64,000 nucleotides of DNA, from NCBI RefSeq assembly GCF_029223285.1, contig NZ_JARHUJ010000005.1:434001-498000 (forward strand), read 5' to 3'. The notes under the pieces were generated by a model. The model was not told the origin of the DNA and did not search any database. It saw only the letters and a program-made list of their open reading frames with translations. Below, in pieces: positions 45,254 to 61,625 of the stretch; within the stretch, counting starts at the first letter, position 1; each line of letters begins with the position of its first letter. The stretch comes from Paraflavitalea sp. CAU 1676. GTDB lineage: Bacteria > Bacteroidota > Bacteroidia > Chitinophagales > Chitinophagaceae. Both the position numbers and the translations under genes were made by a program.

Positions 45254-45321
45254 ATAGTAAAATATTCCATCATTTCAGTAAGACCTGACATTGGTAGCCC
45301 ATCCCGCTGCTACTAACTTCA
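45254..45321 (+). promoter_or_regulatory. conserved control element and promoter of the CoA-transferase operon
   Basis: ATAGTAAAATA, one base, TCCATCATTTCAG (45254-45278), then 7 variable nt and TGACATTG (45286-45293). TTG of the last element, a 20-nt spacer and TAACTTCA (45314-45321) form a -33/-7 pair. The same blocks in the same order stand before the GH28 gene (58872-58938). The -7 box is only 7 nt from the ATG at 45329, which would make the mRNA leaderless or nearly so. Confidence 0.65.
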
Positions 45322-45328
45322 TTGTATT

Positions 45329-45772
45329 ATGTTCCTGAAAAAATACTTTGAAGCGTTTGATATTGGCGAGTTGCGTACGACGATGGGCCGAACGATCACG
45401 GAGACGGACATTGTTTTGCATGCAGGACAATCGGGCGATTTCTTTCCGCACCATATGGATGAGGAATGGTGTAAGACCCAGCCTTTCAAAAAGCGCATCG
45501 CGCATGGTACGCTGATCTTTACCGTTGCGGTGGGGCTTACGGCCCATGTGATCAATGAGGTATCAATGACCTATGGTTACGAGCGCCTGCGATTTACGCG
45601 GCCTGTTTTCATTGGCGATACCATCTCGGTAAAGGTGACCATCAGCAACAAGGCCGATCATAAGAAACCGCAATATGGACTTGTGACTGAATTGGTAGAG
45701 GTCTTCAATCAATACCAGGAACTGGTGATGGTATGCGAACATTTATTACTCGTGGAAAAACAAGCTCAATAG
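45329..45772 (+). CDS. MaoC-family dehydratase
   Basis: 147 residues, a single hot-dog fold. [29 protein letters not shown] contains the Asp/His hydratase dyad of the family, and [17 protein letters not shown] follows as the second signature. Such enzymes hydrate enoyl-CoA esters or dehydrate 3-hydroxyacyl-CoA in the cytoplasm. It opens an operon with two CoA-transferases. No acyl-CoA dehydrogenase or thiolase is present, so the substrate is not ordinary fatty acid. The next gene starts 5 nt after its stop. Confidence 0.9.
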
Positions 45773-45777
45773 CTGTT

Positions 45778-46944
45778 ATGGCAAATATTACGCTTAAAGG
45801 CATTACCTGGTCGCACAGCAGGGGCATCACCCCGTTGCTGGCGGCCTCTCAACGATTCCATGAATTGTTTCCCCATACGGAGATCGTTTGGGAGAAGAGA
45901 AGCTTACAGCACTTCGCAGATTATCCGCTGGAGAAGCTGACGGGACTGTACGACCTGCTGATCATCGATCACCCGTGGGTGGGCTGTGCAGCGGCCACTG
46001 AATGTGTGCTGCCTCTCGACCAGCATCTTTCCAAAACCTATCTCGACGAGCAGGCCCGCAACTGTGTTGGCCTCTCGCATGTAAGCTATTATTACAAGGG
46101 TCACCAATGGGCGCTGGCCATCGATGCGGCTACACCGGTGGCGAGCTACCGCCAGGACCTGCTGCATGCGAATGATACCCCTGTGCCGCAAAGCTGGCAG
46201 GAGGTGATTGCACTGGCGGCGAAAGGGAAGGTGGCGGTGCCTGCCATACCCATCGACCTGCTGATGAACTTCTATACTTTTTGTATTGCCTGCGGGCAGG
46301 AGCCTTTTCAACAGCCCGATGAAGTGATCGACAAAGCTACGGGGCTGCAGGCCCTTGCGGTGATGCGGCAGTTGTATGCCAATATCGATCCGCTGTTCTT
46401 TACCTGTAACCCTATTGCGGTGGCAGAGCGCATGAGCCGTACCAATGACTATTGGTATTGTCCTTTTGCGTATGGTTATTCAAACTACGCGCGCTCGGGT
46501 TATGGGCAGCACCTGTTGCATTATGCAGATGTGGTGAATTTCGGGCTGGGGCAAAAGCTGCAAACGACCCTGGGTGGCACAGGTCTCGCGATTTCGGCTT
46601 CCAGTGTGCATCATGAAGCGGCTTTGCGTTTTGCGGAGTTGCTGGCTTCCCCGACCTGGCAGGCGGGCATCTACGCGCAAAATGGCGGACAGCCGGGGCA
46701 CCTGAATGCCTGGGTGAACGATGAGGCCAACCGTATTACACACCGTTATTTTCAGCATACGCTGCCGGCGTTGCAGCGGGCCTATATGCGTCCGCGTTAT
46801 CATGGCTATCTCTATTTTCAGGACCATGCCGGCGATCCGCTGCACCAGTATTTGCGCGATGGTGGCAACCCGGCGAGTGTGCTGGAGGCGATGAATAAAT
46901 TGTACAGGCAGAGCCTGGCTAAAAAAGAAACTTTGGCTCTATGA
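45778..46944 (+). CDS. extracellular solute-binding-protein fold without export signal
   Basis: 388 residues from the Met at 45778; the frame extends to 45733, but that overlaps the MaoC gene. The protein shows type 1/8 solute-binding features: YDLLIIDHPWVGCAAATECVLPLDQHL, DAATPVASYRQDLL, PVPQSWQEVIALA, and GGTGLAISASSVHHEAALRFAELLASPTWQAGIYAQNGGQPG near the C-terminal lobe. It has no signal peptide and no lipobox, and no ABC permease or ATPase genes are present. It is therefore likely cytoplasmic, perhaps a ligand sensor or a delivery protein for the CoA-transferases. Its last 4 nt overlap the first CoA-transferase start, so the two are coupled. Confidence 0.82.
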   Translation: MANITLKGITWSHSRGITPLLAASQRFHELFPHTEIVWEKRSLQHFADYPLEKLTGLYDLLIIDHPWVGCAAATECVLPLDQHLSKTYLDEQARNCVGLSHVSYYYKGHQWALAIDAATPVASYRQDLLHANDTPVPQSWQEVIALAAKGKVAVPAIPIDLLMNFYTFCIACGQEPFQQPDEVIDKATGLQALAVMRQLYANIDPLFFTCNPIAVAERMSRTNDYWYCPFAYGYSNYARSGYGQHLLHYADVVNFGLGQKLQTTLGGTGLAISASSVHHEAALRFAELLASPTWQAGIYAQNGGQPGHLNAWVNDEANRITHRYFQHTLPALQRAYMRPRYHGYLYFQDHAGDPLHQYLRDGGNPASVLEAMNKLYRQSLAKKETLAL

Positions 46945-48089
46945 AACCTTTACCACTTGATGGCTTGATCGTGCTGGAGTTCAGTCAATACCTTTCGGGG
47001 CCTTCGGCCGGTTTGCGCCTGGCCGACCTCGGCGCTCGCGTGATCAAGATCGAGCGGCCGGGCGTAGGGGATGCAGGTCGCAAGTTATCGATCAAAAACC
47101 TGTGGGCCGATGAGAGCTCGATGCTGTTCCATACCATCAACCGCAATAAGGAAAGTTTTACGGCCGACCTGCGTAATTCGGAAGAACTGGAGCTGGTGAA
47201 AAAGCTGATCCGTAAGGCCGATGTGGTGACACATAATTTCAGGCCCGGGGTAATGAAGCGTGCGGGCCTCGACTATGCTGCCGTGCAACAGATCAATCCG
47301 CGCATCGTGTATGGGGAGATCTCCGGTTATGGAAAGGTAGGCCCCTGGAAAGATAAGCCGGGGCAGGACCTGCTGGTGCAGTCGCTGGCCGGGTTGATGT
47401 ATACTACGGGCAACGATGATAACGATCCGGTACCCTTTGGCTTATCGATCGCCGATAGTTTGTGCGGCGCTCAATTGGTGCAAGGCATTCTTGCCGGGTT
47501 GATCAGGCGACACAAAACGGGGAAGGGCGCGCTGATAGAAGTGAGCCTGCTGGAATCGTTGCTGGACTTTCAATTCGAATTACTGACTACGTATCATAAT
47601 GGCGGGCAACTGCCGAGGCGGAGCAGTGTCAACAACGGTCACCCGTTGCTGAGCGCACCCTATGGCTTGTATGCGACGGCCAATGGCTTTATTGCGATCG
47701 CTATGAGCGATCTGGCTACACTGGCCACGGCTTTACACTGCATTGAACTATCGAACTATACAGCGGCGCATGCTTTTGTGAACCGCGATGAGATCAAGCG
47801 GATCATTTCGGCCCATGTGGTGCATCATAGTTCGCAGGTGTGGCTGGCGAAGCTGCACGAACATCATTTGTGGGCCATGGAAGTGCTGGACTGGAAGAAG
47901 CTGACGGGCCACACGGGTTACCAGCATTTGCGGATGGAACAAACGATCCATGCGTCGAACCGGAAAGAGATCGTTACCACGCGTTGCCCCATCCGTATCA
48001 ATGGAAAGATATTGACCTCGGGCAAAGCAGCTCCCGGTTTGGGGGCGCACAACGAGGACATCATCCAAAACTTACTCAACGAAAACTGA
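46941..48089 (+). CDS. CaiB/BaiF family III CoA-transferase, copy 1
   Basis: 382 residues. The family III fold is clear from [72 protein letters not shown] and the active-site region GLSIADSLCGAQLVQGIL with the predicted catalytic Asp172, which would form the acyl-anhydride intermediate. It moves CoA between carboxylic acids. It starts by an ATGA overlap with the solute-binding-like gene, and the second transferase follows after 3 nt. The acid substrate is unknown. Confidence 0.93.
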   Translation: MKPLPLDGLIVLEFSQYLSGPSAGLRLADLGARVIKIERPGVGDAGRKLSIKNLWADESSMLFHTINRNKESFTADLRNSEELELVKKLIRKADVVTHNFRPGVMKRAGLDYAAVQQINPRIVYGEISGYGKVGPWKDKPGQDLLVQSLAGLMYTTGNDDNDPVPFGLSIADSLCGAQLVQGILAGLIRRHKTGKGALIEVSLLESLLDFQFELLTTYHNGGQLPRRSSVNNGHPLLSAPYGLYATANGFIAIAMSDLATLATALHCIELSNYTAAHAFVNRDEIKRIISAHVVHHSSQVWLAKLHEHHLWAMEVLDWKKLTGHTGYQHLRMEQTIHASNRKEIVTTRCPIRINGKILTSGKAAPGLGAHNEDIIQNLLNEN

Positions 48090-48092
48090 GCC

Positions 48093-49262
48093 ATGCAATT
48101 ATTGCAGGATATCATAGTACTTGATTTCAGTCAGTTCCTGTCGGGGCCATCGGCGGCTTTACGCCTGGCAGATATGGGCGCGCAGGTGATCAAGATCGAG
48201 AAACCGGAAACCGGCGATATCTGCCGGTACCTATATGTATCGGACGTGATGATCGAAGGTGAGTCGACGATCTTCCATGCGATCAACCGCAACAAACAAA
48301 GTTATGCGGCGGACCTGAAGCAGCCGGAAGACCTGGAGAAGATCAAGAGGCTGATCGCAAAGGCGGATGTGATGATGCACAATTTCAGGCCCGGGGTGAT
48401 GGAGCGTATCGGGCTGGATTATGAAACGGTGAAGCGTATCAATCCCTCGATCGTTTACGCTGAAGTGAGTGGATATGGTACAGAAGGGCCGTGGAATCAT
48501 TTGCCCGGACAGGACTTGCTGTTGCAGGCGGTTTCGGGACTTACCTGGCTGAGCAATAACGATAAGGAAGCGCCTACCCCGATGGGGGTGGCGGTGGTAG
48601 ATATTTTTGCCGGCACGCATATCGCGCAGGGCATTCTGGCCTGTTTGTATCGCCGCACCATCAGTGGCGAGGGCGCGCTGGTACAGGTGAGTATGCTGGA
48701 AAGCATTCTTGATTTCCAATTTGAGGTGTTGACAGCGTATTTCAATGATGGTGGTCAGCTACCGGTGCGTAGTGCGGTGAATGCGGCGCATGCTTATATC
48801 GCTGCCCCGTACGGCGTTTACAAAACCGCCAACGGTTATTTGTCGCTGGCGATGGGCAATATCCTTACGCTGGCGAGCCTGCTGGGTTGTAAGCCGCTGG
48901 AGCAATTTGCCCAACCGGCCGACTGGTTCAGCAAGCGGGATGAGATCAAGTCGATCCTGGCGTCGCACCTGGTGAGCGAACCAACGGAACATTGGCTCGG
49001 CATCCTGGAGCCGGCCGACATCTGGTGTGCGCGGGTGCTGAACTATGAAGAGTTACTGAATGAAGAAGGATACAAGGTGCTCAATATGGAGATGGTGGTG
49101 AAAACGAGCAATGGTTTGAGCATTACTACAACGCGGTGTCCCATCCGTGTAGATGGTCATCTACTGGTTTCCAAAACCGGTGCTCCCGTACTGGGCGAGC
49201 ACAATGCCGTGATCGAACGCCAGTTTGGTTTGGTTGCCCTCGATAGTGCTGTACGTTTGTAA
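48093..49262 (+). CDS. CaiB/BaiF family III CoA-transferase, copy 2
   Basis: 389 residues, clearly paralogous to the preceding gene along its whole length: [65 protein letters not shown]. The predicted catalytic Asp170 in [18 protein letters not shown] is kept. Two adjacent intact copies recall two-subunit CoA-transferases such as the malate enzyme of Chloroflexus, so a heteromeric enzyme is one option. The other is two enzymes acting on successive acids. Twenty nt separate it from the amidohydrolase gene. Confidence 0.93.
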
Positions 49263-49282
49263 GCTTTGCTTTATATTGCCAT

Positions 49283-50137
49283 ATGAATGTCATCGATACA
49301 CATATTCATATCTGGGATCTTTCGAAGGTCCGCTATTCCTGGCTGGAAGGCAATACCTCTATTCTGAACCGCAATTATTTACTGGGTGAACTGGAGCCTG
49401 CGCGGCTGGTGGCTGGTGTTACCGGCGGCGTGCTGGTGCAGGCGGCCAACAATACGGAGGAGACCGATTATATGCTGCGGGTGGCTGCGGCACATCCCTG
49501 GCTAAAGGGGGTGGTGGGCTGGTTGCCACTGACGGATCCAGTACTTACTGAACGATTACTAAAGGAACAATATGGACTTAATCCCTTGTTCAAGGGTGTG
49601 CGTCACCTTATTCATGATGAGGCGGATGTGCGCTGGCTGTTGCAGCCGACGGTGATCGAGAGTCTTGGTATTCTGGCGCGTCATGGTATTAGCTATGACG
49701 TGGTGGGTGTTAAGCCTGAACATATCGAAACCGCGCAAGCGGTAGCGGAGAGAGTGCCAACGCTTTCGATGATCTTCGATCATTGCTGTCAGCCCCCTAT
49801 TGCCAGTGGCGAACGTTTTGGCCTCTGGGGGGAATTGATGAAGGCAGCGGCGGCGCATTTGCCATTTCATGTGAAAGTATCCGGATTGGGTATTACTGCA
49901 CAGAAAGGGGCGGATTGGACGGCCGATGATATTGCGCCGTATGTGGAATTTGTGCTGGAGCATTTTGGCGTGAGCAGGGTTTGCTGTGGCGGTGACTGGC
50001 CGGTGTGTTTGCTGGCTGGCAGCTATGCGGATGCCTGGCGCAATTATAAGGAGGTTTTAACCTCGCTGCTGGATCGATCTTCGCTGGAAAAAGTATTTTA
50101 CACCAACGCATTATCCTACTACCGATTGCAACCTTAG
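49283..50137 (+). CDS. amidohydrolase-2 family lactonase
   Basis: 284 residues. The metal-binding HxH lies at the start (IDTHIHIWDLSKVRYSWL), a TIM barrel follows, FDHCCQPP carries a further His, and CGGDWPVCLL the catalytic Asp. The subgroup includes L-rhamnono-, L-fucono- and 2-pyrone-4,6-dicarboxylate lactonases. In this operon, next to a RhaT-type symporter and a sugar dehydrogenase, hydrolysis of an aldonolactone in the cytoplasm is the natural reading (inference). The gene is packed between its neighbours with gaps of 20 and 23 nt. Confidence 0.9.
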   Translation: MNVIDTHIHIWDLSKVRYSWLEGNTSILNRNYLLGELEPARLVAGVTGGVLVQAANNTEETDYMLRVAAAHPWLKGVVGWLPLTDPVLTERLLKEQYGLNPLFKGVRHLIHDEADVRWLLQPTVIESLGILARHGISYDVVGVKPEHIETAQAVAERVPTLSMIFDHCCQPPIASGERFGLWGELMKAAAAHLPFHVKVSGLGITAQKGADWTADDIAPYVEFVLEHFGVSRVCCGGDWPVCLLAGSYADAWRNYKEVLTSLLDRSSLEKVFYTNALSYYRLQP

Positions 50138-50160
50138 TGCGATCATAAATCCCGTAAACC

Positions 50161-51300
50161 ATGGAAGTATTGGCCGGTGTGCTGTTTCATTCTGTAGGCG
50201 CTTCTAGCGCGGCGCTTTGTTATACGCCGCAGAAGAAGGTGCTGGGCTGGTCGTGGCAAACCTACTGGCTGGCGCAGGCTTCGGTGTGCTGGCTGTTGTT
50301 GCCGGTGATCGTTGCGTGGCTCACCATCCCGCAACTGGGGACGGTATTGCGGGAGGCGCCGGCGGATGTGTTGTGGAAGACCTTTGCGCTTGGGATGGCA
50401 TATGGCGTAGGCGGTACAGCTTTTGGCATGGCGATCCGCTATGTTGGGTTCTCGCTTACCTATGCTATTTCTGTTGGTATTTCGTGTGTGCTGGGAACGC
50501 TGATTCCGCCGTTGGTGCGGGGCGAACTCAGTGCGGTGTTTGATAAAACGGGGGCAGGCTGGGTGATGACGGGTATTGCGCTGGGCGCTTTGGGCATTGC
50601 TATATGCGGTGTTGCGGGAAGGAGTAAAGAGAAGGACCTTGCGCAGGCGCATGTTGCGGGCGGCGGTTTCTCCTTGAGCAAAGGGTTGCCTTTGTGTTTG
50701 CTGGCAGGCATTCTTTCTGCCGTGTATGGCTTTTCGCTGGACCAGGGTAAACCGATTGCCGATATTGCTGCGCGTTATGGTGCGGGCAATTTTCAGGGCA
50801 ATGTGATCTATATCTTTTCGAATGCAGGAGCATTTGTTACAACGTTGTTGTATTGTTTATATCTCCATAACAAGGAGAAGACCTTGGGTGAATATACCGG
50901 TGGAGGTGTTCTAGCGGGCGCTGGCCATGATGCCAGTGCGAGCGGGGATAGAAAACCTGTAAGTGCTTCGGTGGGAGCCGCGCGGGCAACTGTTGGCGTA
51001 AGTGGTGTGCTGGGCATGAACTTTGCGATGGCGGCACTGACGGGCCTGTTGTGGTATGGCCAATTCTTCTTTTATGGATTGGGACATTTGCGCATGGGCA
51101 GTTATAAATTCAGCAGCTGGGCTATTCACATGATCATGCTGGTATTGTTGAGTTCCATTGCAGGCATTTTGCTGAAGGAGTGGAGCAGTAGCAGCAAGGC
51201 GACCAGGCTAAAGCTGGGGACTGCGCTCTTTGTATTGACTGTTGCGGTGATCGTGCTCACGGTGGGTAATTACCTGGGTGATGATGCGGTTTCGCACTAA
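50161..51300 (+). CDS. rhaT: L-rhamnose/proton symporter family protein
   Basis: 379 residues with about ten transmembrane segments. The similarity to RhaT runs along the length: FHSVGASSAALCYTPQKKVLGWSWQTYW, GMAYGVGGTAFGMAIRYVGFSLTYAISVGIS, LSAVYGFSLDQGKPI and GLLWYGQFFFYGLGHLRMGSYKFSSWAIHMI all have close counterparts in the E. coli protein. A cytoplasmic loop (about residues 240-275) is longer than usual. It would import L-rhamnose or a related sugar with protons. No rhamnose isomerase or kinase gene is nearby, which suggests a different route or substrate. Confidence 0.9.
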   Translation: MEVLAGVLFHSVGASSAALCYTPQKKVLGWSWQTYWLAQASVCWLLLPVIVAWLTIPQLGTVLREAPADVLWKTFALGMAYGVGGTAFGMAIRYVGFSLTYAISVGISCVLGTLIPPLVRGELSAVFDKTGAGWVMTGIALGALGIAICGVAGRSKEKDLAQAHVAGGGFSLSKGLPLCLLAGILSAVYGFSLDQGKPIADIAARYGAGNFQGNVIYIFSNAGAFVTTLLYCLYLHNKEKTLGEYTGGGVLAGAGHDASASGDRKPVSASVGAARATVGVSGVLGMNFAMAALTGLLWYGQFFFYGLGHLRMGSYKFSSWAIHMIMLVLLSSIAGILLKEWSSSSKATRLKLGTALFVLTVAVIVLTVGNYLGDDAVSH

Positions 51301-51315
51301 AAGATCTGCATATTA

Positions 51316-52359
51316 ATGAGTTCTCCTTTTATTTATATTATCGGGGCGGGTGGTATTGTTAATGACGCGCATTTGCCGGCTTATCAGCTGGCGGGTTACC
51401 CGGTTGCGGGCATTTATGATATCGACGTGGCGAAGGCGCAAGCTACTGCGGATCGATTTGGCATTCCCGCGGTGTTTGATACCCTTGGCGGCCTGGTGGC
51501 TGCGGCGGGGAGTAGCGGTATCTATGATATTGCGGTGCCGGCCGATCATCTTACGAAGTTGTTGACGGTGTTGCCGGCCGGCTCGTTGGTGCTGATGCAG
51601 AAGCCGATGGGGATGGATTATGCGCAGGCGAAAGAGATAGTGGCACTGGCAAGATCAAAACAACTGGTGGCGGCTGTCAACTTTCAACTGCGGTATGCTC
51701 CCTTTATCGAGGTGGCGCGTGCGCTGATCGATGCCGGTACGATCGGTGAGTTGTGTGATATTGAAGTGAATGTAAATGTGCATACGCCCTGGAACCTCTG
51801 GCCATTTCTTTTTTCTTCTCCCCGCGTAGAAATTCTCTATCATAGTATTCATTACATCGACCTGATACGCCAGTTGGCCGGTAATCCTGTGGGTGTGTTT
51901 GCCAAAACGGTGAAGCATCCTTTGATGCAGGAGCTGGCTTCGGTGCGCAGCAGTATCGTGCTGGATTATGGCGATTGGCTGCGTGCCAATATTCTTACCA
52001 ATCATTGTCATGTATATGGCTTGCAGCACCAACATTCGTTCATTAAGCTGGAAGGCACGAAGGGAGCTATCCGTATTCACCTGGGTGTGTTGATGGATTA
52101 TCCCCACGGGCAAGCAGACAGGCTGGAGTATGTGGTGTTGCAGGAAGGTGTTGAACCAGTGTGGCAGTCTGTTGCTTTGGAAGGGAACTGGTTTCCTCAT
52201 GCTTTCATGGGCTGCATGCGCCAACTGATGGAGGTGGCTGCGGGCAAGCGTGAGCGCCCGGATAATTCCGTAGAAGATGCTATCGATACCATGGCCTGCG
52301 TGGAGGCTGCCTATCGCTCGGATGGCAAACAATCTATTTTATTGGCTGATATTCTCTAA
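51316..52359 (+). CDS. Gfo/Idh/MocA-family dehydrogenase
   Basis: 347 residues. The Rossmann start IYIIGAGGIVNDAHLPAYQLAGYPVAGIYDID is standard, but the usual EKP motif reads QKP (VLMQKPMGMDYAQ): Lys is kept and Glu replaced by Gln. The C-terminal domain has FLFSSPRVEILYHSIHYIDLIRQLAG, where the family active site lies. A cytoplasmic NAD(P)-dependent sugar or sugar-acid dehydrogenase. In this operon it could oxidise an imported sugar to the lactone used by the amidohydrolase (inference). The secreted glycosidase-like gene starts 11 nt after its stop. Confidence 0.9.
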   Translation: MSSPFIYIIGAGGIVNDAHLPAYQLAGYPVAGIYDIDVAKAQATADRFGIPAVFDTLGGLVAAAGSSGIYDIAVPADHLTKLLTVLPAGSLVLMQKPMGMDYAQAKEIVALARSKQLVAAVNFQLRYAPFIEVARALIDAGTIGELCDIEVNVNVHTPWNLWPFLFSSPRVEILYHSIHYIDLIRQLAGNPVGVFAKTVKHPLMQELASVRSSIVLDYGDWLRANILTNHCHVYGLQHQHSFIKLEGTKGAIRIHLGVLMDYPHGQADRLEYVVLQEGVEPVWQSVALEGNWFPHAFMGCMRQLMEVAAGKRERPDNSVEDAIDTMACVEAAYRSDGKQSILLADIL

Positions 52360-52370
52360 TCGATCGACTT

Positions 52371-55118
52371 ATGATGCGTTGGATGTGCAGGTATTTCCTG
52401 ATCTTATCAGGCGTAGTGATGGCGGCTCCGGTGTGGGCGCAGAAGAAGCCTTTTGCTGTGGTGGTGCGCCATGATGCCGTGGCGCGTATTGCCTATGGCA
52501 CGGAACAGATCAGCAAGGCTTTGCAGGAAACGGGTTACCAGGTGGTGATCGCGAAGAAAGCCAGTTATGGTGGTCGCACGCCGCAGATACTGGCGGGTAC
52601 GCTCAAGGAAGCCGCGGTATTGGCGTACGTGAAGCAGTTTGGGGTAGATACGGCAAAGCTGGGCAAGGAGGGCTTTGTGATCAGGCGGCGATCGAATGTG
52701 ATCCTCATTGCGGGAGCTGATGCTTCGGGGGCTTTGTATGGTTGCCTGGAGCTGGCTGAGCAGGTGCGGCGCGCGAAAGCGTTGCCCGATGCCATCGATC
52801 TGCGTGATCGTCCGCAGATGGTTTTGCGGGGCACCTGCATTGGTGTACAGAAGCCTTATTACCTGCCGGGTCGTACGGTATACGAGTACCCTTATACGCC
52901 CGAAACATTCCCCTGGTTCTATGATAAGAAATTGTGGTTGCAATATCTCGATACGCTGGTAGCCAACCGGTACAATTCGCTGTACCTGTGGAATGGTCAT
53001 CCTTTTGCTTCTTTGGTGAAGCTGAAGGATTATCCTTATGCAGTGGAAGTGGATGAGGCTACTTTTAAAAAGAATGAAGAGATGTACCGCTTCCTTACGC
53101 AGGAGGCCGATAAGCGCGGCATCTGGGTGATCCAGATGTTTTACAATATCATCGTGTCCAAACCTTTTGCGGAACATCATGGCATCAAGACGCAGGACCG
53201 GGAGCGACCCATCACCCCACTCATTGCCGATTATACGCGCAAGTCGATCGCTGCTTTTGTAGAGAAGTATCCGAACGTTGGCTTGCTTGTTTGTCTGGGC
53301 GAAGCGATGGAAGGGGTGGGCAAAGATGATGTTGAGTGGTTTACCAAGACTATTATTCCCGGTGTACGGGATGGGCTGAAAGCCTTGGGCAGAACGGATG
53401 AGCCGCCGATCGTGTTAAGGGCGCATGATACGGATGCGCCGGCGGTGATGAAGGAGGCCTTGCCTTTGTACAAGAACTTATATACTGAGGCGAAGTTCAA
53501 CGGTGAAGCGTTGACGACCTATACGCCACGCGGCCCCTGGGCGGAGTTGCATCGTACCCTGAGCCGTATTGGTACGGTGCAGATCGAGAATGTACATATC
53601 CTCGCCAACCTCGAACCTTTCCGGTATGGGTCGGCGGATTTTATACAAAAGTCGGTGCAGGCGATGCACTCGACGTATGAAGCAAATGGTTTGCATTTGT
53701 ATCCGCAGGCTTCTTACTGGGACTGGCCATATGCGGCGGATAGCACGTCGCATGGTTTGCTGTTGCAGGTGGAGCGTGATTGGATCTGGTACCGCGAGTG
53801 GGCGCGCTATGCGTGGGATGCTCAGCGTGAGCGTGGTGGTGAGGTGGATTACTGGGCGGGCCAGTTGGCGGAACGCTATGGTTGCAGTGTGGAGCAGGGG
53901 AAGCAGCTATTGAAAGCCTACGAGGAGTCGGGCGAGATTGCGCCGAAATTGTTGCGCCGATTTGGGATTACGGATGGTAACCGGCAAACGCTGACGCTGG
54001 GTATGACGATGCCGCAGCTGGTGAACCCAAAACGGTTTGGGCTCTTTGAGTTGTTGTATAATTCGGAAGGTCCGGAGGGAGAGATGCTGATCGAATATGC
54101 CGAGAAAGACTGGAAGGGGTTGCCGCATATTGGTGAAACACCGCTGACGGTGATCAGTGAGGTGCGGGCGCATGGCCAACTGGCGGTGGACGCCATTGAA
54201 GCGGCCGGGGAAGGTGTTACGCGCAACCAGGAAGAATTTATCCGGCTGAAGAATGATATGCTGATCTACCAGGCTTTGGCCAATCACTATGCTTATAAAG
54301 CATTGGCGGCCATGAAGGCGCTGCGGTATAAATACAGTGGTGATCTCAATGACCTGAAGCAGGTGGTGAGTCCGCTGGAGGCGAGTGTTTCGTGGTACAG
54401 GAAACTCACCGATCTTACCAAAAGCACTTACCGATATGCGAACAGTATGCAAACGCAACAACGCAAAATTCCTTTCAGAGGGGTGAATGCAACTTATAAG
54501 AACTGGTGGGAGGTTTTGCCGGAGTTTGAAAAGGAATTGGTGCAACTGAACAGGCGCATCGATTCGCTGGGGACTGCTGTGAATGCCGTAAGGGTGGCTG
54601 ACCCGGTGCTGGCTGCGGCGTTGGTGGATGTGCGGGGTGTTGTGGTGGGGCGCTATGCGGCGGTGCCCGGTGCACGCACGTTTGGCGATAGTTTGTTTAC
54701 GCTCAAGCGCGTGATTCCTGAGCTGGCGCAACTGGAGGGGATCCAAACCAACTGGGCACAGCAGGTGCGGGAGGGGACTACGGTTTCGTTCACTACGGAG
54801 AAGCCGGTGAAATTACTGGTGGGATTCTTTGCCGGCAAAAAGCCGGGGTTGCTGCCTGCGCCGGAACTGGAGACAAATGCGGCGGCCAATGATTATGGGC
54901 AGGCAGAGGTGAAGGTGGCGAATGGTGTGTTTATCGAGGGGCTGCCGGCGATCAACATCCATACTTACTCTTTTAAACCGGGTAAGAATGTGTTGCAGCT
55001 GGCGAAGGGCGCGTGCCTGTTGCTGGGATTTGCGGCAGAGGAGGCGCCGCTGCGGGTGTATGATGCGGGCCTGCAGGATAAAAGCAGCAGGCAGGAAGTT
55101 GATTGGATCTTCGAATAA
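52371..55118 (+). CDS. large secreted glycosidase-like protein (alpha-glucuronidase/galacturonidase type)
   Basis: 915 residues with a signal peptide (MMRWMCRYFLILSGVVMAAPVWAQ). Residues about 25-140 form the small alpha/beta domain that precedes the barrel in GH20, GH67 and GH84 enzymes (YGTEQISKALQETGYQVVIA, ADASGALYGCLELAEQV). A TIM-barrel-like region follows (DRPQMVLRGTCIGV, LWLQYLDTLVANRYNSLYLWNGHPF, GLLVCLGEAMEGVG, PIVLRAHDTDA, ILANLEPFRYG). CLGEAME carries an acidic pair suitable for catalysis. The last third is helical, then beta. The family is not certain: an alpha-uronidase acting on pectin fragments is the best guess. As the last gene of the CoA-transferase operon it would supply the sugar taken up by the symporter. 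Confidence 0.72.
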   Translation: MMRWMCRYFLILSGVVMAAPVWAQKKPFAVVVRHDAVARIAYGTEQISKALQETGYQVVIAKKASYGGRTPQILAGTLKEAAVLAYVKQFGVDTAKLGKEGFVIRRRSNVILIAGADASGALYGCLELAEQVRRAKALPDAIDLRDRPQMVLRGTCIGVQKPYYLPGRTVYEYPYTPETFPWFYDKKLWLQYLDTLVANRYNSLYLWNGHPFASLVKLKDYPYAVEVDEATFKKNEEMYRFLTQEADKRGIWVIQMFYNIIVSKPFAEHHGIKTQDRERPITPLIADYTRKSIAAFVEKYPNVGLLVCLGEAMEGVGKDDVEWFTKTIIPGVRDGLKALGRTDEPPIVLRAHDTDAPAVMKEALPLYKNLYTEAKFNGEALTTYTPRGPWAELHRTLSRIGTVQIENVHILANLEPFRYGSADFIQKSVQAMHSTYEANGLHLYPQASYWDWPYAADSTSHGLLLQVERDWIWYREWARYAWDAQRERGGEVDYWAGQLAERYGCSVEQGKQLLKAYEESGEIAPKLLRRFGITDGNRQTLTLGMTMPQLVNPKRFGLFELLYNSEGPEGEMLIEYAEKDWKGLPHIGETPLTVISEVRAHGQLAVDAIEAAGEGVTRNQEEFIRLKNDMLIYQALANHYAYKALAAMKALRYKYSGDLNDLKQVVSPLEASVSWYRKLTDLTKSTYRYANSMQTQQRKIPFRGVNATYKNWWEVLPEFEKELVQLNRRIDSLGTAVNAVRVADPVLAAALVDVRGVVVGRYAAVPGARTFGDSLFTLKRVIPELAQLEGIQTNWAQQVREGTTVSFTTEKPVKLLVGFFAGKKPGLLPAPELETNAAANDYGQAEVKVANGVFIEGLPAINIHTYSFKPGKNVLQLAKGACLLLGFAAEEAPLRVYDAGLQDKSSRQEVDWIFE

Positions 55119-55154
55119 TTAACCGTCTGTATATTGATTGTTAAGTAGTTTATG

Positions 55155-55191
55155 ATGGCTGATCTGCCTTTTGGGGTGATCGGCCATTTTT
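55155..55191 (+). terminator. terminator of the CoA-transferase operon
   Basis: ATGGCTGATC (55155-55164) pairs with GATCGGCCAT (55178-55187) with one G-U pair, followed by TTTTTAT. Confidence 0.7.
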
Positions 55192-55214
55192 ATGTGCTAA
55201 GTTTTTCTGTACGC

Positions 55215-55549
55215 TTGTGGCACCGATCGGTTTTTTTGATATATTTATCGTGTATCGGGTTTTAAACTAACTGTCACATGAGAGAATGCCTTGGATCTTC
55301 CAATGTATTGTCATTACTGCACCTATGCGCTACTTTCTGTACTGCTGATGCTTTACCATTCATAAGACGGTTATTTTTTGCATTCGAGATAAGATTCCTG
55401 ACTAACAGGGTTTCTGCGGCCGGGCCTGCGTGTCTGGTTCTGCCGCGCATTTGTGTTGCTCAACCGGGTTCCGGTTGTTGAAGAATGTTTTTCTCTTCTC
55501 TGTTAGTTTTAAGTGCAGGGCTGCCCTTTTGGGCGGCCCTCAGTTTTTT
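55215..55549 (+). other. possible short transcription unit in a 770-nt gene-poor stretch
   Basis: TTG (55215-55217), 22 nt and TATATTTA (55240-55247) resemble a promoter. A terminator (AGGGCTGCCC 55517-55526, TTTT loop, GGGCGGCCCT 55531-55540, then six T) closes the unit. Inside, a 67-codon frame (55278-55481, MRECLGSSNVLSLL at its start) has six Cys and no recognisable family. Shorter frames overlap it. It may be a small RNA rather than a gene. From 55550 to 55888 I see nothing. Confidence 0.35.
55517..55549 (+). terminator. intrinsic terminator of the short unit
   Basis: A 10-bp stem with one G-U pair and a TTTT loop is followed by CAG and a run of T. Confidence 0.75.
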
Positions 55550-55888
55550 AGGGTGGGGTGGGGGAGCGGGGCATAAAGTGGATCGCCATATGGCGCTTCG
55601 GGTGGACCTGGAGGCGCTTTAGTTGGGGCTGGGCGGTCTTTGTTTTGTGCGATTCTGATCAAGTCCGCTATGGGGCTGGGTTTGCCAGTTTAATTCGGAG
55701 AATTTCCGCATTGGGCCTGCTTTTGAGGGCAGTTGCTTCACGGTTCCTTTTGAGTTCCCTCGCGGTTCGTATTGAGTTCCTGTTGAGATGACCACGACTT
55801 ACCCGGGGAGTACCCGGGAATTGAACGGGGAGTGAATAGACGGGGGCCAGGGAGGTGGCGGGAGGTGGGCAGGGGGAGAGCCCCCTGA

Positions 55889-56758
55889 TCATTTGTTCAA
55901 TACTTTCATCACATTGAGTTTATCGAGAATGAGCAGCAGGAATAATACAGTGAGCGCTGCCCCAAACAAACAAACCATCAATACGGCGTAATAATCGATG
56001 GTCCATTCGAGGGCTACTTTTAACCGTTGGATAAATGGTACGCCTTTGTGCGTGGCGCCTTCGTAGAGCGAAAACTTCACCGTGCAAAACTCATTTTCCG
56101 TATCAAAATTACCCAGTTCTACCCCCAGTGCCTGCAGCTGGGTTTCTATTTCCAGGATCTTATCGTGCAGGGCCACAAAATCACTGATCACGCCGCCTTT
56201 GGCTTTGAGTTCATTTAAGGAGGCGAGCGTTTTCTCCAGCGATGCCTTTTTGGCATTCAACTGCCGGTATTCATTTGTTTTATCAACCTTGGTTACTTCT
56301 TTTGCTTTAACATCGCCGATGTGCTGGATCTTCACATAGAAACTGTCGAACTTATCAGGGCTGATCCCGATCAGCAAGTGAATTTCCCGATTGCCTTTAT
56401 TGCCCGTATTCTTTTCATATTGAACAACTCCTCCAAATTTGCTGGTCTCGCTATTGATCTGTTTTACACCTTCCTCAAACTGAGCGCTCTTCGATTTTAT
56501 CGAGGCCGTTTTCTCGTATTTCTGGGAGGATGCGTTTTGGGCATCTGCGGGAACGTCGTTTTTTAAGTATTGCTTTTCACTGGCATAGTTTTTCCGCAGG
56601 TTCGCTACCCCGTCAAAATAGTCGGAAGAATAATCGCCACCCTGCGACAGGCTGCTGGTAATGTATCCATAGGCAAGCCTGAAAATGAGCATGGCAAAAA
56701 ACAATACGACAAACCATTTGCCGTAGTTCCAGAAGCGTCCTTTGAAGATATTTTTCAC
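55889..56758 (-). CDS. DUF4349 membrane protein
   Basis: 289 residues. A membrane segment lies at the N-terminus (WFVVLFFAMLIFRLAYGYI). The extracytoplasmic part (about 40-245) contains the DUF4349 core: EKTASIKSKSAQFEEGVKQINSETSKFGGVV, NREIHLLIGISPDKFDSFY, and a coiled coil EYRQLNAKKASLEKTLASLNELKA followed by ILEIETQLQALGVEL. A second membrane segment lies at the C-terminus (YYAVLMVCLFGAALTVLFLLLIL). The family role is unknown; the two anchors and the coiled coil suggest an envelope structural protein. The promoter TAGATTTG (minus strand 56791-56784) sits 25 nt upstream. Confidence 0.9.
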   Translation of the reverse strand: MKNIFKGRFWNYGKWFVVLFFAMLIFRLAYGYITSSLSQGGDYSSDYFDGVANLRKNYASEKQYLKNDVPADAQNASSQKYEKTASIKSKSAQFEEGVKQINSETSKFGGVVQYEKNTGNKGNREIHLLIGISPDKFDSFYVKIQHIGDVKAKEVTKVDKTNEYRQLNAKKASLEKTLASLNELKAKGGVISDFVALHDKILEIETQLQALGVELGNFDTENEFCTVKFSLYEGATHKGVPFIQRLKVALEWTIDYYAVLMVCLFGAALTVLFLLLILDKLNVMKVLNK

Positions 56759-56783
56759 GGTGTGGGTGGGGGTTATAGGTAGG

Positions 56784-56791
56784 CAAATCTA
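56784..56791 (-). promoter_or_regulatory. -7 box of the DUF4349 gene
   Basis: TAGATTTG on the minus strand matches TAnnTTTG. Confidence 0.5.
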
Positions 56792-56969
56792 CCTCTTTTG
56801 TTTTTCCGTATTCTAACTGTATCGTTAAAACAGATAGTAGTGAAAAAAGATATGTTTTATTTATGGAATATGGGTGGGTTTTGCATCCTATTAAGATAGG
56901 GATGTCTTCCGTTTGGTGAATCCGGGCGGTTGGTGCAGTACGGTATTATTCATCATTAAAACTTATCAC

Positions 56970-58358
56970 ATGGCAAAGGTTGTTGGTCTTTTAAAGTTGC
57001 GGGGTTCCGCCGGGGGCTTCAGCTTTTATGAGTTTGAGGGAGAAACCTATTGTAAAGAAAAGGGGAGTCCGAACGCCTGGCAGATGAAGCATGGGCATCA
57101 GTTTGCCGGCTCGCGGCGGCAGGCAGCGGAATTTGGCCGGGCTTCGGCGGCGGGTAAGCTTTTCAGGCAGGCGATGGGCAATGCGGCTGACGGCCTGCGG
57201 CTGCACAGTTTATCGTGGCGGATGTGCACCTGGCTGCTGGGCGCTTTGCAGCGCGATCCCGTGAGTGGTTGGGGTGAGCGGAAACTGACGGAGACGGACC
57301 TTAGCCTATTGGATGGTTTCGAATTCAACAAGAAGACTTCATTGGATGACCTGTTGCCGGTGAACCTGCCCGATAGTCACCGGATACAGGATGACAGGGT
57401 ACGGGTGTCGATGCCGGGTTTCCGCCTCAGGCGTAAAAAGAAAATGCCTGAAAGGGCCACGCATTATAGAATTGTATCCGGACTGGTCTATATCGACTTC
57501 GGGAAGCGGAACTTTGTACGTGACCTGATCCACAGTGAATATCATCCGATCGGCAATAAGCATTGCGCGTCTTTCGAGGTGGAACACCTGCTGCAGGAGC
57601 ATGCCGGCATGGCGGGGTTCTGGCTTTGGGGCATCGAGTATTACGAGACGACGGCGAAAGGGTGGAAAGAGGTGAAGGGCGGTTCGATGCGGATGATGAA
57701 ATGCTGGAATGTGCAGGAAGTGCAGCAGATTGAACTGAACCGGGCGGAGATGGCGGCGTTGTTGGTGCAGGAGCAGCCGTGTTTTGCCTGCGCGGTGGAA
57801 CCGGCCTGGGTGGCGGCTTTGGAGGATGCTGCTGGGGGCGATAATGGGGTGGCGGCCACGGAGGTGGACATGGGTAGGGCCGATCGGTCTTCGGAAGCGG
57901 TGACGGAGGAGGAGCTGAGCGGAACTTCGCAGGAGAAGATGGTGCGGGAGGTGAGGGAGATTACGCCGGAAATGACGGACCACGAAACGGAGCTGGTATC
58001 GACGGAGGTGGGGGATCTGAAAGTGGGGCTGCTATCGCCGGACGTAATGGAACAGGAGACGGAATTGCTTTCGCCGGAGGTCATTGAACTGCAGGCGGAG
58101 TTGCTGGCGGAATTTGACAGGCGGGTGGCGGCTATTGCGAGCGCTGCACCTGCTGAGTTGGTAGTAGACGCTGAAGGCATACTGGTGCTCAAACCGGAAG
58201 AAGGACCTTTGGCGATGGAGGTAGTGGCAACGGCGGAAGCAGCTGAAGCCCCGCCGGGCTTACTACTTACTGCCAACAATAAACCCGGCCTTTGTTACGA
58301 GCCGGGTTCTAGTGCTGGTGTTGGGGTTTCGAATGTTGATGGTCTATGCCTCTGGTAA
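56970..58358 (+). CDS. Bacteroidota-specific protein of unknown function with acidic repeat tail
   Basis: 462 residues from the Met at 56970 (MAKVVGLLKLRGSAGGFSFYEFEGETYCKEKG). This opening resembles a group of Bacteroidota proteins of unknown function that start with MAKxxGxLKxxGxxGGxSFY and carry a basic DNA-like or filament-like N-terminus. The middle (about 75-290) is mixed alpha/beta. From about residue 290 the protein becomes strongly acidic. Residues about 332-378 form four degenerate 12-residue repeats of the form S-P-E-V-x5-E-L-L. No signal peptide. The gene ends 15 nt inside the convergent AraC gene. Function unknown. Confidence 0.75.
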   Translation: MAKVVGLLKLRGSAGGFSFYEFEGETYCKEKGSPNAWQMKHGHQFAGSRRQAAEFGRASAAGKLFRQAMGNAADGLRLHSLSWRMCTWLLGALQRDPVSGWGERKLTETDLSLLDGFEFNKKTSLDDLLPVNLPDSHRIQDDRVRVSMPGFRLRRKKKMPERATHYRIVSGLVYIDFGKRNFVRDLIHSEYHPIGNKHCASFEVEHLLQEHAGMAGFWLWGIEYYETTAKGWKEVKGGSMRMMKCWNVQEVQQIELNRAEMAALLVQEQPCFACAVEPAWVAALEDAAGGDNGVAATEVDMGRADRSSEAVTEEELSGTSQEKMVREVREITPEMTDHETELVSTEVGDLKVGLLSPDVMEQETELLSPEVIELQAELLAEFDRRVAAIASAAPAELVVDAEGILVLKPEEGPLAMEVVATAEAAEAPPGLLLTANNKPGLCYEPGSSAGVGVSNVDGLCLW

Positions 58359-58697
58359 TATTTTCTTCCGGAGGTCACTGGGAAGCATCTGGAACTTTCT
58401 GCGGAATGCGGCCGTGAGGTTCGTGGCATGATTGTAGCCACAACGATGCGCGATCTCTGCAATGGGCAGGTCGGTCTCTTTAATGAGCGAGGCTGCTTCT
58501 TTCAGTCGGGCCACCTGCAGGTACTCGTAGGGGCCAGTGCCATACATCTGCTTGAACCCATACTTAAGGGTGGGCTCATCGAGCTCGACGATGCGGCTCA
58601 GCTGGGGTATGGAATAATGAATGTGGATGTCCTTCAGGATGAGGACGGCGGCGGTCTTTAATTTCTCCTGCGCCGCTTCGGCAATTTTCTTTTGCAT
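58344..58697 (-). CDS. AraC-family regulator consisting of the DNA-binding domain only
   Basis: 117 residues. Two helix-turn-helix units cover nearly the whole protein: SIPQLSRIVELDEPTLKYGFKQMYG and PIAEIAHRCGYNHATNLTAAFRRKFQMLPSDLR. A sensor domain is absent, so it is not a normal 280-300-residue AraC protein. A short helical N-terminus with Lys/Glu residues precedes it. Its promoter TAAATTTG (minus strand 58751-58744) and a GTTGGA-GTAT-TCCAAC palindrome (58777-58792) lie upstream. It faces the GH28 operon and is a candidate activator of the shared element at 58872 and 45254. Confidence 0.88.
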   Translation of the reverse strand: MQKKIAEAAQEKLKTAAVLILKDIHIHYSIPQLSRIVELDEPTLKYGFKQMYGTGPYEYLQVARLKEAASLIKETDLPIAEIAHRCGYNHATNLTAAFRRKFQMLPSDLRKKILPEA

Positions 58698-58743
58698 AGC
58701 GATAAGGTTTTTTGGTTTTACAGAAAAAGGATAGCTGCTATAC

Positions 58744-58792
58744 CAAATTTATCATTAATCAATGTTGCAAACAGGAGTTGGAGTATTCCAAC
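58744..58792 (-). promoter_or_regulatory. AraC gene promoter region with a palindrome
   Basis: Minus-strand TAAATTTG (58751-58744) is a full -7 match. A 16-bp perfect inverted repeat GTTGGA-GTAT-TCCAAC (58777-58792) sits just upstream, at a position fit for control. Confidence 0.45.
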
Positions 58793-58871
58793 CCGCACTT
58801 TAAGTTTCTGGTTTACGGCCAGTTGCGAGGATGCGAAACGGCCTTTTGCGTGCCGCCCGGGCCGCCGGAGA

Positions 58872-58938
58872 ATAGTAAAATAGTCCATCATTTCAGCCAT
58901 TCGTGACATTGCCTGAGGACGCCAGTCTACTACCTTTA
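58872..58938 (+). promoter_or_regulatory. conserved control element and promoter of the GH28 operon
   Basis: ATAGTAAAATA, one base, TCCATCATTTCAG (58872-58896), 7 variable nt, TGACATTG (58904-58911), a 19-nt spacer and TACCTTTA (58931-58938). All blocks recur in the same order and nearly the same spacing before the CoA-transferase operon (45254-45321). The 25-nt upstream block would sit at about -40 to -75, the usual place for an activator. Confidence 0.7.
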
Positions 58939-59007
58939 ATGCGAATAGGTTGGGGCTCATGATGTTATCAGGTGTGCCCGATTGTTTTGAATCTTCATCA
59001 TTGCCAT

Positions 59008-60369
59008 ATGAAATGTGTTCTGCCAATCCTTGTTCTCTTTTCCTGTCTGGCCGTTTCTGCCGGTAGCTTTGGACAATCTTATTATAACGTCGTCAAGTAT
59101 GGCGCGCACAACGACAGCAGCCGCAAGGCCACTGCCGCCATCGCCAAAGCCATTGCCGCCGCTTCCAAGGCAGGCGGCGGTACGGTGTACTTTCCTGCCG
59201 GGAAATACCTTACCGGGCCGATCCACCTGAAAAGCAATATCACCATCCTGATCGATGCCGGTGCTGAGTTGCATTTCAGCGACGACTTCGACGACTACCT
59301 GCCCATGGTGAAGAGCCGGTATGAAGGTGTTGATGTGACCAGCTTTTCGCCCCTGTTCTATGCGTATGAGGCGGAGAATATTGCCATCAAAGGGCGTGGT
59401 ATCATCGATGGCCATGGCCGTAAGTGGTGGCATTTTGTGGAAGGCTACAAAGAAGGGCAGGAGCGTAGTAAGTGGCAGTTGATCTTTGATGGTCTGAACA
59501 AAGACATCCTGCTGCCCGATGACCCAAAACAAATGAAACGGGGCTTTCTGCGTCCCCCGTTTATTCAGCCCATGTTCTGCAAGAACGTGTTGATCGAGGG
59601 CATCACCATTCGCAACTCGCCGTTCTGGACCGTGAATCCGGAGTTCTGCGAGAATGTAACGGTGACCGGTGTTACCATCAACAATCCTCCTTCGCCCAAT
59701 ACAGACGGCATCAATCCCGAGTCGTGCAAATACGTGCACATCAGCAATTGCCATATCAGTGTGGGCGATGATTGTATCACGATCAAATCGGGCAAGGATG
59801 TGCCGGGCCGCACCAAGGCAGCGCCCGCACAGAACTATACCATTACGAATTGTACTATGCTTAGCGGACATGGCGGCGTAGTGATCGGCAGCGAAATGAG
59901 CGGCGGTGTCAGGAATATTACCATCAGCAATTGTGTGTTTGACGGTACCGACCGTGGCATCCGCATCAAAACGGCGCGTGGCCGTGGTGGTGTGGTGGAA
60001 GTTATCCGGGTGGACAATATCATCATGAAGAATATCCGCGACCAGGCGATCGTACTGGATATGGAATATGCCAAAGTGCCGGTTGAACCAGTGAGTGAAA
60101 GAACGCCGGTTTTCCGCAATATCCGGCTCAGCAATATTACTGCCTATACCAAGACGGCACTTTACATCAATGGCCTGGAAGAAATGCCGGTGCAGGAATT
60201 CAGCTTGAGTGATGCCTACTTTGAAGCTGAGCAGGGCATTACGATACGCAAGGCCAAAGATGTTGAGTTGCACAAGGTGCGGATCAATGTAAAGCGGGGC
60301 AGTCCGTTAGTTACTGAAAATGTGCAGGGTTTGTCGGTGGATGGTTTTACCAGTGGTCCGAAGTTATAG
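59008..60369 (+). CDS. polygalacturonase-type glycoside hydrolase, GH28
   Basis: 453 residues from the Met at 59008 (MKCVLPILVLFSCLAVSAGSFG is the signal; the longer frame to 58972 adds unrelated residues). The right-handed beta-helix carries all GH28 landmarks: NTDGINPESC, VGDDCITIKSGKD, the GHG in LSGHGGVVIGSE, and RIK in GIRIKTARG. It hydrolyses alpha-1,4-galacturonosyl bonds in pectin; family members also include rhamnogalacturonases and xylogalacturonases. The envelope location suggests an oligomer-degrading exo-enzyme. It opens an operon with a GH43-like and a GH2 gene. Confidence 0.94.
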   Translation: MKCVLPILVLFSCLAVSAGSFGQSYYNVVKYGAHNDSSRKATAAIAKAIAAASKAGGGTVYFPAGKYLTGPIHLKSNITILIDAGAELHFSDDFDDYLPMVKSRYEGVDVTSFSPLFYAYEAENIAIKGRGIIDGHGRKWWHFVEGYKEGQERSKWQLIFDGLNKDILLPDDPKQMKRGFLRPPFIQPMFCKNVLIEGITIRNSPFWTVNPEFCENVTVTGVTINNPPSPNTDGINPESCKYVHISNCHISVGDDCITIKSGKDVPGRTKAAPAQNYTITNCTMLSGHGGVVIGSEMSGGVRNITISNCVFDGTDRGIRIKTARGRGGVVEVIRVDNIIMKNIRDQAIVLDMEYAKVPVEPVSERTPVFRNIRLSNITAYTKTALYINGLEEMPVQEFSLSDAYFEAEQGITIRKAKDVELHKVRINVKRGSPLVTENVQGLSVDGFTSGPKL

Positions 60370-60521: not shown

Positions 60522-61625
60522 ATGCTTAGAAGAGACTATCTAATTGCGTTGCTGGCTTGCTGGATTGGCTGTATGCTGGGGGCTCAAGGTCAGCAGTTGG
60601 TGGCCGATTCGGTGATGCAACGTATTTACGGGGAGATCAAAACTCCTTTCAAATATGGTATGGTCGTAGTGCCGGCGGATGATTCGAAGAAGATCGACTG
60701 TCCGACAGTTTTTCGCAAAGGCGATACCTGGTACATGACCTATATCGTGTTCGATGGCCGTGGCTATGAAACCTGGTTGTCGGAAAGCAAGGACCTGTTG
60801 CAATGGACGCCCAAAGGTAAACTGCTTTCGATGGCTGACTCCTCCCAATGGGATGGTAACCAGCGGGCGGGTTATCCCGTTTTGCAGGACATGACCTGGG
60901 GTGGTAGTTATGCATTGCAAAAGTATAGCGGCAAATACTGGATGTCGTATATCGGTGGTGCAGAAAAGGGGTATGAGGCGGGCCTGTTGTCGATCGGGAT
61001 GGCTTATACCAAGGGGTCGCCCTGGAAGGCGCATGAGTGGCAACGGTTGCCGGCTCCGGTTTTGACCTCAAAGGATACCGATGTACGGTGGTGGGAGAAT
61101 AAAAAGCAATTCAAGAGTACGGTGATCTGGGATAAAGAAAAGAAAACGGGTTATCCTTTTGTGATGTATTACAATGCCAATGGCGATTCGGCGGTCAATA
61201 ATATCAAGACGCGCTGGTTTGAGCGCATCGGTATGGCCGTTTCGAATGATATGGTGCACTGGAAGCGATTTGAGGTTGAGCCGGTGATGCATCACCCAGC
61301 GGGGATTACCGGCGATGCGGTGATCCAACGGATTGGTGATGTGTATGTGATGTTCTATTTCGGTGCTTTCTGGACGGGGCGCAAAGATGCTTTCAACCGG
61401 TTTGCGTGTTCGTACGACCTGGTGCACTGGACCGACTGGCAGGGCGATGACCTCATCAAGAGCAGTGAACCGTATGATGACCGTTTTGCCCACAAGTCAT
61501 TTGTGGTAAAACACAAAGGCATTGTATATCATTTTTACTGTGCGGTGAACAAGAAAGATCAGCGTGGTATTGCGGTGGCAACGTCTGTTGATCAGGGTAA
61601 AAGCAATATTTCGTTTGTAAAGTAA
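60522..61625 (+). CDS. secreted five-bladed beta-propeller glycosidase (GH43-like)
   Basis: 367 residues with a signal peptide ending near GAQGQ. The propeller signature repeats are visible: DCPTVFRKGDTWYMTYIVFDGRGYETWLSES, SKDLLQWTPKG, KYWMSYIGGAEKGYEAGLLSIGMAY, MVHWKRFEVEPVM, VYVMFYFGAFWTG, SYDLVHWTDWQ. These are the strand pairs of GH43, GH32 and GH62 type enzymes. Acidic residues (Asp in DCPTVF and GDAVIQ, Glu in SSEPYDDRF) are candidates for the catalytic set. An arabinosidase, galactosidase or related activity on pectin side chains fits the context. The gap to the GH28 gene is 152 nt, with no terminator seen. Confidence 0.82.
   Translation: MLRRDYLIALLACWIGCMLGAQGQQLVADSVMQRIYGEIKTPFKYGMVVVPADDSKKIDCPTVFRKGDTWYMTYIVFDGRGYETWLSESKDLLQWTPKGKLLSMADSSQWDGNQRAGYPVLQDMTWGGSYALQKYSGKYWMSYIGGAEKGYEAGLLSIGMAYTKGSPWKAHEWQRLPAPVLTSKDTDVRWWENKKQFKSTVIWDKEKKTGYPFVMYYNANGDSAVNNIKTRWFERIGMAVSNDMVHWKRFEVEPVMHHPAGITGDAVIQRIGDVYVMFYFGAFWTGRKDAFNRFACSYDLVHWTDWQGDDLIKSSEPYDDRFAHKSFVVKHKGIVYHFYCAVNKKDQRGIAVATSVDQGKSNISFVK

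Follow-up and report, generated by a model that had tools for sequence, protein, structure and literature searches.

We describe a regulatory element that stands before two operons of Paraflavitalea sp. CAU 1676 (Chitinophagaceae) in a 64,000-nucleotide stretch of contig NZ_JARHUJ010000005.1 (positions 434,001 to 498,000, forward strand; RefSeq assembly GCF_029223285.1). This stretch is called the window, and its positions are used throughout unless a contig (C numbers, C19 being this one) or a genome (G000 being this genome, other G numbers those of relatives) is named. The element has the architecture of an AraC-type operator, and the operons belong to a putative locus for the use of rhamnogalacturonan-II (RG-II). 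On our reading, to which we give a probability of roughly 0.8, it serves as operator for a regulator of the AraC/XylS family, most likely an activator, that is encoded at C19:539577-540485 and would co-induce the RG-II operons.

The two copies in the window are on the forward strand and lie 13.6 kb apart. Their first blocks, at 45254-45278 before a gene for a MaoC-like hydratase and at 58872-58896 before a GH28 pectinase gene, are identical at 24 of 25 bases; both continue with seven variable bases and TGACATTG (45286-45293 and 58904-58911), after which come 20 nt and the box TAACTTCA (45314-45321) in the first case, and 19 nt and the box TACCTTTA (58931-58938) in the second. This succession of blocks, and its place before both genes, is exactly as an original prediction made from the letters of the DNA had described it. 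The pattern is matched twice in the window and not once in 100 dinucleotide shuffles. The prediction had also proposed searching this genome and its relatives for the 25-nt block: with up to three mismatches it is found three times in the 8.84 Mb of the genome, where the same pattern read backwards has no match. The 25-mer also occurs in 8 of the 59 genomes searched, this one counted, for which the backwards control gave two matches.

The anatomy of the element was derived from a weight matrix of 43 columns and 63 sites, drawn from 20 regions in 19 genomes, 1.6 Mb in all, that had been picked for holding pattern matches. At 10 bits or more the matrix has 67 matches in these regions and its reversed form none; four hits below 18 bits are excluded from the 63-site counts, among them one of 14.2 bits before the MaoC homologue of G135 and one of 16.1 bits before the alpha-galacturonidase homologue of that genome. 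The matrix is most like itself at a shift of 21 columns (z 4.8, the next of the 17 shifts tested reaching z 1.7), and the 39-bp operator consists of two head-to-tail half-sites at this distance, TAGTAAAATnnTCCATCA and YAGTnAAACCTkACATTG. A reading of the element as an inverted repeat was rejected, the best axis reaching z 2.3 against z 4.8 for the direct repeat. On the MaoC side the half-sites are TAGTAAAATATTCCATCA (45255-45272, matrix columns 3-20, identical in three species) and CAGTAAGACCTGACATTG (45276-45293, columns 24-41, likewise conserved in the three species), and on the GH28 side TAGTAAAATAGTCCATCA (58873-58890) and CAGCCATTCGTGACATTG (58894-58911), placed by the same matrix and its 21-bp self-similarity; the 25-nt block is half-site 1 with the start of half-site 2, and the seven variable bases with TGACATTG are the remainder of the latter. 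Half-site 2 ends in a -33-like CATTG, and a TAnnTTTA box stands 19-20 nt past it in 57 of the 63 sites (41 under a stricter count, for which shuffling gives a mean of 0.78), a spacing that is kept by the -7-like boxes TAACTTCA and TACCTTTA. A direct repeat of about two helical turns, with the promoter-proximal half-site at the upstream promoter box as in class II activation, is the arrangement of an AraC-type operator. The MaoC start codon follows the -7-like box by 8 nt (45314-45329), and the transcript may therefore have almost no leader; the distance from site to gene is greater in most of the other genomes.

The operon behind the MaoC-side operator runs on the forward strand from the MaoC-like hydratase (45329-45772; PF01575) through a solute-binding-protein-like gene (45733-46944; PF01547, 30.8 bits), two copies of a family III coenzyme A (CoA) transferase (46941-48089 and 48093-49262; PF02515), a fuconolactonase-like amidohydrolase (49283-50137; PF04909, with NF052480 at 149 bits and thus short of its cut-off of 400), a RhaT-like sugar transporter (50161-51300; PF06379) and a Gfo/Idh/MocA oxidoreductase (51316-52359; PF01408) to an alpha-D-galacturonidase (52371-55118; NF049878, 1452.8 bits, cut-off 1300). 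The second operon, on the same strand, begins with the GH28 pectinase (58972-60369; PF00295) and continues with a glycosidase resembling the N-terminal part, or first quarter, of a beta-glucuronidase/beta-L-arabinofuranosidase (60522-61625; NF049877, 542.8 bits over residues 18-366, cut-off 1800 not reached) and a GH2 enzyme (61649-64000; PF02836) that extends beyond the window end (C19:495649-498072). The remainder of the locus includes apiosidase and BT_1020-like domains, GH141, GH127, GH106, two GH78-type rhamnosidases and another GH2. Enzyme families of RG-II breakdown, including alpha-galacturonidase, apiosidase and DUF3826, are found here together with SusC/SusD, and from this gene content the locus looks like one that serves RG-II. 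It also encodes a protein of 1339 amino acids (L004:15053-18997; G000:C19:509053-513072), apparently a fusion of RG-II enzymes, in which apiosidase, BT_1020-like and sialidase-like domains were found over the first 1315 residues scanned.

A MaoC homologue is present in 18 of the 20 regions (18 of the 19 element-bearing genomes), and 17 of these 18 regions have a site at most 500 nt upstream of it, in one case scoring only 14.2 bits; in G104 the site lies 4.4 kb upstream of the MaoC homologue, before a CoA-transferase gene. The solute-binding homologue at 45733-46944 is found amid cytoplasmic CoA-transferase genes and by eye lacks a signal peptide at its start, and its homologues recur in 15 of the 20 regions. 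Between the operator copies of some such loci there are, again by eye, PdxA-like and four-carbon-acid-kinase-like genes (G290:C1:873164-877582, L090), homologous families of which recur in four regions; these genes suggest sugar-acid catabolism within the same regulon.

The three strong copies of the element in this genome lie on one strand of contig C19, all inside 19 kb. The third, at C19:498106 (window coordinate 64106; operator span C19:498105-498147), is 106 bp beyond the window and is followed by a DUF3826 gene, SusC, SusD, a pectate-lyase-like gene (PelZ model, under its cut-off) and a DUF6298 gene. A fourth copy, at C19:533423, lies upstream of a GH106 gene and scores 33.6 bits by the weight matrix, half-site 1 alone being well kept; a site on the GH106 side recurs in G004 and in P. 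pollutisoli (G001), in both with a well-matched half-site 1 but a poor second half-site. The fifth (C21:378449, 40.8 bits) lies upstream of a trio of SusC, SusD and lipoprotein genes that are 58%, 60% and 47% identical to the trio within the G290 locus; the C21 trio would seem to be a displaced transporter whose operator has been retained. By the profile R1 the fourth and fifth copies are marginal, at 17.0 and 22.6 bits, the noise level for the genus being 20.1 bits, the best score in the congener G002, from which the regulator is absent. That score belongs to G002:C7:1622, a two-mismatch match of the 25-mer with no half-site 2, which was treated as chance. A site similar to the fifth copy is found in P. 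pollutisoli at C15:2082429, upstream of an open reading frame that by eye is FecI-type sigma-factor-like and of SusCD-like genes; the two sister genomes thus have near-identical operators before transporter genes in unrelated places (L262:6449 and L263:6429), and in P. pollutisoli a gene pair resembling an extracytoplasmic-function (ECF) sigma factor and its anti-sigma factor intervenes between operator and transporter genes. All five copies seen in this genome stand before glycan-utilization genes, and the spread over many unrelated genes that would mark a repeat family is not what is found.

Among 394 genomes of Chitinophagaceae the 39-base pattern of the whole element is matched in 70, from 28 of 101 genera, while the backwards pattern gives four matches. 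Three species of the genus share 39 of 39 positions of the MaoC-side element, against 10 of 80 in the 80 nt upstream; the corresponding figures are 28 of 39 for the GH28-side and 36 of 39 for the DUF3826-side element. Many genera have the element before homologous genes, the gene calls in relatives' regions being simple longest-frame calls. The site that corresponds to site 2 in G004 is 1.5 kb upstream of a GH43/GH130-like gene, in a different gene order, and no GH28 homologue is clustered there.

The candidate regulator is a full-length AraC protein of about 303 amino acids, encoded at C19:539577-540485, some 41 kb past the window end, where its gene closes the locus. In all three members of its family that were scanned, an N-terminal AraC-type cupin (PF02311) and a C-terminal double helix-turn-helix (PF12833, and PF00165 in two stretches) exceed their cut-offs; the best solved relative of the cupin part is BgaR (6nwh). 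No second gene of its subfamily is found in the genome at E 1e-20. When AraC-domain frames were sought in the 20 regions with a home-made profile, the full-length AraC proteins, present in seven, proved to be of one family, 63-70% identical to that of this genome for the five compared. Orthologues at 56% identity or more occur in 62 of the 394 genomes, with the next match at 46% and at most five candidates per genome fully scored; 60 genomes have both orthologue and pattern, 10 the pattern only, two the orthologue only and 322 neither (Fisher p 1.3e-57, kinship ignored). The two genomes with the orthologue only have weaker profile sites (25.9 and 22.2 bits in G008, 30.4 bits in G183), and at least eight genera hold genomes with the orthologue-element pair alongside genomes with neither. 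Four of the pattern-only genomes (G034, G094, G222 and G366) have one three-mismatch match each, which was taken as chance.

The regulator gene is also found beside the element. It is directly divergent from it in 6 of 72 named orthologue loci, G104 and G135 included, and, as seen in the regions, in G290; some of the named loci are from genomes already cited (G001, G104 and G135, for example), and the orthologue and adjacency counts are not independent. The nearest site is within 105 kb of the orthologue in 41 of 49 genomes, among the matches listed, and in the other eight the nearest listed site is at least 182 kb away (three genomes) or on another contig of a draft assembly (five); this count covers 49 of the 62 orthologue genomes and selected listed sites, those of G011 and G290 coming from the matrix scan. 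Paralogues 34-46% identical to the regulator have a divergent site of at least 12 bits at most 200 bp upstream at 11 of 25 loci, for which the reversed matrix gives none, and the paralogue-side boxes are 21 bp apart in all seven sequences checked. The gene neighbours of these paralogues (DUF5107 and SusC-like, LUD-domain and TonB-receptor genes) are unlike the RG-II locus. Given such sites and such differing neighbours, the element tends to travel with the AraC subfamily rather than with RG-II genes, a tendency seen in few lineages.

Several observations weigh against the assignment of the element to this regulator. The Fisher test takes no account of kinship, and the co-occurrence of orthologue and element is partly due to linkage. 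Within the flank examined (at most 10 kb), 58 of the 72 orthologue loci have no site, and the regulator gene of this genome lacks an element immediately upstream, being 41 kb from site 3. Strong sites are found in three pattern-only genomes without an orthologue at E 1e-60, G188:C146:3397 (42.5 bits), G216:C47:1448 (44.2 bits) and G319:C244:7790 (41.7 bits); the assemblies of G216 and G319 are incomplete, while that of G188 is rated 100% complete. As to the paralogues, 14 of the 25 loci have no adjacent site, and 8 of the 11 positive loci come from a single genus (g29), the other three being from another genus of Chitinophagaceae, a Bacteroidales assembly and a Muribaculaceae assembly. Moreover, the g29 genomes G032, G263 and G381, which are pattern-only genomes with a site of the paralogue type, have no match to the profile R1 at E 0.01.

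The best placed of the other explanations, albeit an improbable one, is recognition of the operator by a hybrid two-component system (HTCS), a protein with an AraC-type output domain whose motifs in Bacteroides are direct repeats, some of 21-bp period. In its favour, the rhamnogalacturonan loci of B. thetaiotaomicron have been assigned to HTCSs, and the HTCS_Man motifs are described as two 16-bp sites with a 5-bp spacer (PMC3878776); the solved DNA-binding domains closest to the candidate regulator also come from HTCSs. However, AraC-domain frames of HTCS size occur in only 3 of the 20 regions, those of this genome (about 76 kb from the nearest site), G107 and G145, and the cupin-type regulator co-occurs with the element over the 394 genomes and adjoins it at orthologue and paralogue loci. 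The candidate carries only cupin and helix-turn-helix domains, and not the sensor, histidine kinase and receiver that are joined to the AraC domain in an HTCS.

The original prediction had both operons answering to a common regulator and named for this role a stand-alone AraC DNA-binding domain of 117 amino acids, encoded on the reverse strand at 58344-58697 (PF12833). The presence of one regulator-type element before each operon agrees with the first part. The second part we have had to abandon, since the protein is not conserved with the element, and a role for it either as the regulator or as a modulator (a competitor that only binds DNA, or a constitutive activator) is less probable again than an HTCS. 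Single-domain AraC activators are known, and the gene is divergent from site 2 and about 170 bp from it; in P. pollutisoli, too, a short AraC-domain frame lies about 0.8 kb from site 2, although the window protein does not match that frame at E 1e-15. Against this, no orthologue lies beside an element in the 20 other genomes compared (18 of which bear the element), where the best match is 45%, and BLASTP gave no meaningful alignment with the regulator that tracks the element; within its own genome the protein has a paralogue, its nearest match, that is 68% identical and 121 kb away.

That the block is a conserved sigma-factor promoter and nothing more, with no specific regulator, would account for the CATTG end and the TAnnTTTA box at fixed spacing, but it is very unlikely: half-site 1, the best conserved part of the element, lies wholly upstream of the promoter boxes, which bears out the judgement of the prediction that the match goes beyond a promoter consensus, and three strong copies in 8.84 Mb are far too few for a general promoter. 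Least credible is the idea of mobile repeat copies or a recent duplication, which the near-identity of two blocks 13.6 kb apart might invite, given that the flanks of the two blocks are not common to both, that the MaoC-side element is fully conserved in three species beside a divergent upstream region, and that homologous genes follow the element in many genera.

If the protein encoded at C19:539577-540485 is the regulator, a dimer of it would contact a single face of the DNA, bound to the two half-sites that stand head-to-tail at a distance of 21 bp. Since the downstream half-site runs into the -33-like CATTG, the bound protein would sit beside RNA polymerase and could recruit it to the promoter with the TAnnTTTA -7 box; direct binding, binding as a dimer and activation rather than repression are all inferences. 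The inducer is probably an RG-II breakdown product, which the cupin would sense, and an RG-II signal would then jointly turn on the operons for uptake and hydrolases, the CoA-transferase operon and the SusCD transporter on another contig. We suggest tentatively, with the odds somewhat against us, that the block of MaoC, two CoA-transferases, lactonase-like and Gfo/Idh genes encodes a CoA-ester pathway, as yet undescribed, for a sugar acid specific to RG-II, aceric acid or DHA being guesses at the substrate; such a route might proceed by oxidation to a lactone, hydrolysis, CoA transfer and hydration. Were this so, a common switch would link a pathway inside the cell to the breakdown, at the outer membrane, of the most complex of plant pectins. 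The analysis specifies the operator exactly, and names a candidate regulator, for an RG-II-type locus of a large family of soil- and plant-associated bacteria, with one operator that appears to travel with one AraC subfamily over different loci. It also places a conserved MaoC/CoA-transferase operon inside the putative RG-II regulon, by which the function of that operon becomes testable.

Comparison may begin with the araBAD promoter of Escherichia coli, where the AraC half-site is TAGC-N7-TCCATA and direct half-sites stand at a distance of 21 bp, of which the downstream one overlaps the -35 box. The element described here resembles it in having 21-bp direct half-sites and, in TAGT-N7-TCCATC, a similar half-site, but its promoter is of the Bacteroidetes -33/-7 type, and the sequence similarity of the proteins is limited and confined to the DNA-binding domain (2k9s). 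The AraC-family rhamnose regulators (RhaR) of Bacteroides, Bacillales and Enterococcus likewise serve local plant-sugar regulons through predicted motifs that are direct repeats of 21-bp periodicity; they differ in that RhaR controls L-rhamnose catabolism, with motifs said to be unique to each group, whereas here a large RG-II-type locus of Chitinophagaceae is concerned (PMC3870299). HTCS_Man and HTCS_Rgu of B. thetaiotaomicron share with our candidate an AraC-type DNA-binding domain, direct-repeat operators and an association with SusC/SusD polysaccharide utilization loci (PMC3878776), but an HTCS is a membrane-bound sensor kinase and the candidate a soluble cupin-type AraC protein. With 21-bp direct repeats published for the rhamnose regulators and for HTCS motifs, the architecture is therefore already known, while the motif, the regulator and the regulon are apparently new; a literature search, outside which most subscription papers lay, found nothing on an RG-II or pectin regulator in Chitinophagaceae or on a CoA operon in this setting. 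As for the enzymes, BT1017 (DUF3826 module), the alpha-galacturonidase BT1018, the apiosidase BT1012 and the rhamnosidase BT1001 of B. thetaiotaomicron are reported to act on RG-II (PMC7939467), and all of these families are found in this locus. In the locus described here, the MaoC/CoA-transferase/lactonase-like block stands in one operon with the alpha-galacturonidase.

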